NCBI GenBank assembly: GCA_012729725.1
Contig: JAAYCO010000067.1
Span: 1 to 37,734, forward strand
Length of the DNA: 37,734 nt
From: Planctomycetota bacterium
Lineage (GTDB): Bacteria > Planctomycetota > Phycisphaerae > SM23-33
Reading direction: 5' to 3'
Below the pieces are notes generated by a model that was not told the origin of the DNA, did no database searches, and saw only the letters and a program-made list of their open reading frames with translations. A program made the position numbers and the translations under genes. The first letter of the stretch is position 1; each line of letters begins with the position of its first letter. Shown piece after piece: positions 22,185 through 24,839 of this stretch.

Positions 22185-24185
<2,001 letters not shown>

Positions 24186-24193
24186 TTATCGCC

Positions 24194-24265
24194 TCAGCAC
24201 ATGGCTGCGAAGCTCAGGACGATGAAGAAGACCATCTTAATTTTTCTGCGGTATTCATTTGTCAT
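24194..24265 (-). CDS. 23-residue small membrane-type ORF with a consensus ribosome site
   Basis: A 24-codon frame begins MTNEYRRKIKMVFFIVLSF and ends AAMC. It has a basic N-terminus followed by one hydrophobic segment. AGGAGGTG (24278-24271) lies at ideal distance from ATG 24265, the strongest ribosome site in the window. That site is enclosed in a hairpin (24269-24286). The ORF is convergent with ligA, whose stop is eight bases beyond. I do not recognise the peptide; a small inner-membrane peptide is the natural guess. The combination of a perfect ribosome site and a sensible peptide makes it more than chance, but there is no homology evidence. Confidence 0.45.
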   Translation of the reverse strand: MTNEYRRKIKMVFFIVLSFAAMC

Positions 24266-24268
24266 TTG

Positions 24269-24286
24269 AGCACCTCCTGGGGCGCT
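24269..24286 (-). promoter_or_regulatory. CCAGGA-loop hairpin over the ribosome site of the small ORF
   Basis: In the minus-strand transcript AGCGCC-CCAGGA-GGUGCU folds into a 6-bp stem (one G-U pair) with a hexaloop containing AGGA. Part of the AGGAGGUG ribosome site lies in the stem and the rest in the loop. A GGA in a hexaloop over a ribosome site is the layout of CsrA/RsmA repression sites. Confidence 0.5.
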
Positions 24287-24307
24287 GAAGCAACACCATT
24301 ATGATAC

Positions 24308-24326
24308 CGCGCCGTCCTGGGGCGCG
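24308..24326 (-). promoter_or_regulatory. Second CCAGGA-loop hairpin, 40 bases upstream
   Basis: CGCGCC-CCAGGAC-GGCGCG is a perfect 6-bp stem whose loop repeats the CCAGGA of the hairpin at 24269-24286. The 11 bases GCGCCCCAGGA are identical in both (minus strand 24325-24315 and 24285-24275). CsrA often binds two such sites at once. Confidence 0.45.
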
Positions 24327-24377
24327 AAGGGGGCAAGAGGCGACTTTAATAAAAAACCGGCCCGAAATCAGTATTTT

Positions 24378-24692
24378 TTAAGTTGGGCAAGCTGTTGCGC
24401 CTGTGCGGGCTGTGACGATTAATCCAGCCGCCGGCTTCACGTCGTTATTTGACTGTGGAATGTCACGATATTTTGCCCGATTTGTGATCGGAACCGTGTC
24501 TCGGCCCATTGCATGCGATAACCCCAATGCGAAGTAGATAGCCATGTCTGGTTTGCCGGTGTAGTGAGTGACGTCAACCACAAAGACTTTGGAAGTCGAC
24601 AGCACGTTTGGCAGTTCCTCGTACATCCTGCCCCAGTGCGCCTGGATCTGTTTGTCAAAAATGCACTCCCGGTTAGTCATAAAGCATCTCAT
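24378..24692 (-). CDS. Small orphan resembling deoxyribosyltransferase/TIR-like nucleotide-binding domains
   Basis: About 104 residues from ATG 24692, preceded by GGAG. The core STSKVFVVDVTHYTGKPDMA followed by IYFALGLSHAMGRDTVPITN has the shape of the nucleoside 2-deoxyribosyltransferase / TIR-like fold, in which an (I/V)xDVT strand is followed by a (Y/F)ELGxAHALGKPVI helix. Those proteins act on nucleosides or NAD. Here the usual catalytic Glu of ELG is Ala (FALG), and the C-terminus is short and diverges after IPQSNNDVK. It may be an inactive fragment. It lies on the guaA strand, after a repeat-rich gap. Base composition is lower in GC than its neighbours, which would fit acquisition. Confidence 0.42.
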   Translation of the reverse strand: MRCFMTNRECIFDKQIQAHWGRMYEELPNVLSTSKVFVVDVTHYTGKPDMAIYFALGLSHAMGRDTVPITNRAKYRDIPQSNNDVKPAAGLIVTARTGATACPT

Positions 24693-24839
24693 GCTCGCTC
24701 CATTCCGTTGCCTCTGATGCGTGTGGCGCACGATACGGCAAATGACTATATCAAGATACGATAGCCTGTGAATCAAGCAGGCGGATTATATGCTGACATG
24801 CCATCCATGACAAACACATTTCAACTATAGAAAAGCATA

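Follow-up and report, generated by a model that had tools for sequence, protein, structure and literature searches.

On the minus strand of the window, the whole 37,734-nucleotide stretch of DNA analysed here, an open reading frame (ORF) of only 23 residues begins behind a ribosome site that is folded into a hairpin. Is this ORF a gene, and if so, how might its translation be controlled? An earlier note, made from the sequence of the window, described it as a small membrane ORF under CsrA-like control by two hairpins with the same loop. The frame is present as claimed, being small, hydrophobic and coding, with conservation among homologues that includes a codon-level signal. It runs from the ATG at 24265..24263 to the end of the stop codon at 24194 (24194..24265, minus strand, stop codon included; 23 amino acids, MTNEYRRKIKMVFFIVLSFAAMC), and a Shine-Dalgarno (SD) sequence, AGGAGG (24273..24278, minus strand), lies 7 nt 5' of the ATG. 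Judged from its homologues and codon pattern, the ORF is a genuine gene from a family, so far without annotation, of tiny and probably membrane-bound peptides.

The extent of this family was followed outward from the window's relatives. Matches in a DNA search of relatives begin in or span the micropeptide ORF in several genomes, and a profile search within its own family recovered the peptide from 24 of 35 genomes at E-values up to 1, about 19 of the 24 being strong. With a wider alignment, the profile matched 54 of 397 genomes across the class (E 0.001); grown further, it matched 288 of 396 genomes that were at least 90% complete (E 0.01), nearly always with a single match. A phylum-wide draw of 394 genomes, of which about 290 are inferred to lie outside the class and serve as a negative control, gave 80 matches, all 80 inside this same class. 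In the window's genome, PF07596, sought as a marker of Planctomycetota, gave matches that are weak and merely suggestive. About three quarters of the sampled class genomes carry the gene in one copy each and, with its near-invariant C-terminal cysteine, it likely matters to the cells. A scan of 46 members gave no matches in NCBIfam and one marginal match in Pfam (E 0.098), and a PDB profile search with the micropeptide returned chance matches only. That no curated family exists is attributed to the length of the peptides, which is only 22-33 residues.

Members of the family share a common build in which a basic N-terminus is followed by about 13 hydrophobic residues and then by [ST][FY][AVIL][ASV][LM]C-stop. 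The cysteine is succeeded at once by the stop codon in 20 of 20 further members from nine other families, and the exceptions without a cysteine are two weak members, G189 and G331. Among members from f1, the window's family, and its sister family f2, differences at codon positions 1, 2 and 3 number 971, 560 and 1508, and each of the four Ala codons, the two Cys codons and the three stops is used. Since third codon positions are the most variable, selection acts on the peptide, and throughout the class this selection is purifying. As in other small membrane proteins, a conserved, translated-looking short ORF is found together with a hydrophobic segment; at about 13 residues, this segment is short for spanning the membrane in full, which counts against the membrane reading. 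The closest likeness is to YohP and other small single-span bacterial membrane proteins (PMC7549839, PMC12719787), which also have fewer than 35 residues, one hydrophobic segment, a stand-alone gene and probably conditional expression. Unlike them, the micropeptide has a near-obligate cysteine directly 5' of the stop and a shorter hydrophobic stretch, shows no sequence relation to them in the libraries searched, and has so far been found in one class only.

Turning to the ribosome site, the earlier note had placed it inside a hairpin with a CCAGGA loop, and the sequence bears this out: AGCGCC-CCAGGA-GGTGCT forms 6 pairs at 24286..24269 on the minus strand. Throughout much of f1 and f2, the SD lies within a covarying hairpin of 4-7 bp with a loop of mostly six bases, as in the leaders GATTGCC-CCAGGA-GGTAATC (G008), GATTACC-CCGGGA-GGTAATC (G034) and GATTGCC-TTTGGA-GGTGATC (G009). 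Contiguous pairs in the f1/f2 hairpin number 98, as opposed to 85.3 ± 3.5 with shuffled 3' arms (2/20000). In alignment A4, 83.3% of cells are paired versus 76.8% after shuffling, with 0 of 500 shuffles as high, and the covariation score stands at 5 of 500 shuffles; pairs with double changes are within the shuffle range, so the covariation signal is moderate. Of the 14 micropeptide GGAGG sites, 7 have six or more pairs, versus 1 of the 399 GGAGG sites elsewhere in related loci, and a 6-pair hexaloop hairpin over GGAGG would be found in about 0.5% of random sequence. The single-sequence stability of the leader is ordinary (z = -1.0; 28 of 200 shuffles fold equally well), and the MFE fold of the putative full transcript has pairs other than those of this hairpin. 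What establishes the hairpin at the ribosome site is comparison with relatives, in which it is conserved with compensatory changes, and not its own stability. The hairpin is absent from some f1 members and outside f1/f2.

In 9 of 10 genomes, the micropeptide ribosome site scored highest with a covariance model of the hairpin, which had been built from these same sequences. When the model was used to search for a regulon, none was convincing, those of the weaker matches that could be read lying mostly inside other sequence, and an Rfam search gave no matches at gathering score and one chance match (E 4.6). One of the weaker matches in the window's genome (G000:C20:23807-23830, L220) lies just 5' of a 387-aa glycosyltransferase-like ORF that starts with TTG, and is probably due to chance.

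The second hairpin that had been described 40 nt upstream, with the same CCAGGA loop and 11 identical bases, is also present in the sequence as the inverted repeat CGCGCC-CCAGGAC-GGCGCG (24308..24326). It shares GCGCCCCAGGA (11 nt) with the hairpin over the ribosome site, at a GGA-to-GGA distance of 40 nt. Promoter comparison predicts a -35-like element, TTCGCG (24323..24328, minus strand), and, after a 16-nt spacer, a -10 element, TATCAT (24301..24306, minus strand), in an arrangement common to many relatives; upstream of the gene, most f1/f2 members have a TTCGCG-like and a TATAAT-like hexamer separated by 16-17 nt. If this predicted promoter is used, the RNA would start near 24294 and the upstream repeat would lie outside the transcript; because of its position between the -35-like and -10 elements, it is probably left out of the RNA. 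Of the two hairpins that the earlier note expected to be kept in relatives, only the one over the ribosome site is, since the GGA loop of the upstream repeat was not seen in them. Bridging of two sites by CsrA is therefore not supported, given the position of the upstream copy within the predicted promoter spacer and the lack of conservation in its loop. In G009 (L090), as in the window, the -35-like and -10 elements enclose a CGCGCC...GGCGCG inverted repeat, which could be an operator.

The reading preferred here, and considered probable on these comparisons, is that a conserved membrane micropeptide is encoded by a stand-alone gene and that its translation is tuned in the f1/f2 lineage by an RNA hairpin. 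Transcription from a sigma-70-type promoter would begin about 30 nt 5' of the ATG, and the 5' hairpin would pair the GG of GGAGG and lower translation until something opens it, be it the ribosome, a protein, temperature or another RNA. Inserted in the membrane, the peptide would have its basic n-region in the cytoplasm, and through its terminal cysteine it may serve a membrane protein as a small partner or as a modulator. Both the terminal cysteine and the hairpin are directly testable targets.

Binding of CsrA to the hairpin at the ribosome site is possible but not indicated; that CsrA binds the loop GGA there and blocks the ribosome, at a single site with no bridged pair, is judged unlikely. 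A csrA gene encoding an ordinary CsrA was found in the window's genome (E 1.2e-24), as the earlier proposal would have it, and in 57 of 63 genomes of relatives; with csrA almost everywhere in the class, finding it does not discriminate. The loop GGA is kept in most f1/f2 members over a conserved stem, but the SD GGAGG includes this GGA, which would be retained in any case. The sites that CsrA binds with high affinity are hexaloops of the form ANGGAX (PMC4005645). Loops vary among the relatives, and the CCAGGA loop departs from this form, with no A two before the GGA, no X after it and the GGA abutting the stem, a mismatch that concerns the high-affinity form and is still compatible with weaker CsrA binding. 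Among the relatives, only G015 has an A two before the GGA, G032 (GCGAGA) and G019 (ATGCGA) keep the stem without the loop GGA, and G028 has the hairpin while no csrA was found in its genome, which is 92% complete. Furthermore, the hairpin is common to no other gene, and the second site is not conserved and, given the predicted promoter, probably untranscribed. A precedent for such control is the flaA leader of C. jejuni (PMC4894983), where the loop of a hairpin covering the ribosome site likewise contains a GGA and compensatory changes in relatives support the 5'UTR hairpin. However, flaA has two transcribed ANGGA hairpins, while the micropeptide gene has one that is predicted to be transcribed, lacks the ANGGAX form and has lost the GGA in two relatives that keep the stem. 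CsrA-specific control, as the earlier note suggested it, is not upheld by these comparisons.

The peptide itself invites a further explanation, namely that it is a bare signal peptide of the lipoprotein type that would tune lipoprotein processing, its terminal cysteine being lipidated or occupying Lgt/LspA. A basic n-region, a hydrophobic h-region and a near-obligate final cysteine are shared with lipoprotein signal peptides, yet in each of 39 cases L or M precedes the cysteine, instead of the G, A or S of a lipobox, the cysteine is the last residue with no mature chain following, and a link to lgt or lspA was not seen; the idea is considered improbable. Less probable still is a hydrophobic peptide akin to type I toxins that is silenced by RNA structure. 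Its size, hydrophobicity and occluded ribosome site would resemble those of Ibs/TimP-like toxins, but the gene is single-copy, vertically inherited and set among conserved neighbours, its C-terminus is strongly conserved, no antitoxin RNA was identified and a plasmid search for the micropeptide found no relative.

The micropeptide gene stands alone between its neighbours. Immediately downstream is a convergent gene (22191..24185, plus strand) taken from family knowledge of its sequence to be ligA, encoding an NAD-dependent DNA ligase, and the same arrangement is found in 14 loci in f1/f2. A scan of named genomes with this LigA gave no near relatives. Several f1 genomes with ligA have no micropeptide ORF beside it, some of the contigs stopping early. 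In 10 loci from several families, the upstream neighbour is a divergent glycyl-tRNA-synthetase-like gene, and in five f5/f22 loci a ribosomal protein S1-like gene lies downstream, both names being the authors' own reading of the sequences. A short ORF with a conserved C-terminus preceding its stop could be a leader or arrest peptide controlling a downstream gene; with the next gene in f1/f2 usually being the convergent ligA, and the genes downstream varying from family to family, this is very improbable. The chance of an accidental ORF with accidental hairpins, for which the ordinary single-sequence folding might speak, is negligible and is ruled out by class-wide conservation at the codon level and by the hairpin enrichment. 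The earlier note had remarked on a nucleotide-binding orphan next to the small peptide. This 132-aa ORF (24378..24776, minus strand), which has a TTG start and lies upstream of the micropeptide gene, had no match in a Pfam search and falls outside the conserved context, whereas ligA and, in some loci, the glycyl-tRNA-synthetase-like gene fall inside. In 13 loci of f5, f16, f19, f22 and f24 (L098, L100, L106, L110, L114, L252-L255, L266-L269), a divergent protein of 570-722 aa, assigned to no family, adjoins the micropeptide.

Outside the families with the hairpin, the micropeptide gene appears to have another kind of promoter. Sigma-54-like sites scoring at least 14 were found in 13 of 31 loci where the hairpin is absent, against 0.09 expected from random windows of the same loci; the scan used a hand-made matrix built after some sites were seen, so the result is a strong lead and no clean test. 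At the same threshold, 0 of 28 loci in f1, f2, f17, f21 and f23 had such a site. Of 75 genomes, 73 have an rpoN gene, f1/f2 being represented among them. Sites of the form TGGCAC-N5-TTGC/TTGAT/TTGTT occur 15-60 nt upstream of the micropeptide start in L099, L100, L101, L106, L112, L252, L254, L255 and others. The family would be an example of one gene whose control has apparently been rewired between sigma-54-like and sigma-70-like promoters. A more far-reaching and doubtful proposal is that the family constitutes a new class-wide kind of micropeptide, a bare signal-peptide-like helix with an obligatory end cysteine that acts through its thiol, whether lipidated, metal- or haem-binding or disulfide-forming; its gene would depend on sigma-54 in many families and would have been rewired in the window's order to a sigma-70-type promoter with a hairpin switch at the ribosome site. 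Leader structures of another kind were also seen upstream of the micropeptide gene. Three f17 members (L263, L264, L265) have a UUCG-capped hairpin, CATGGC-TTCG-GTCATG, and the f21 leader contains a related motif, GGCTTCGG.
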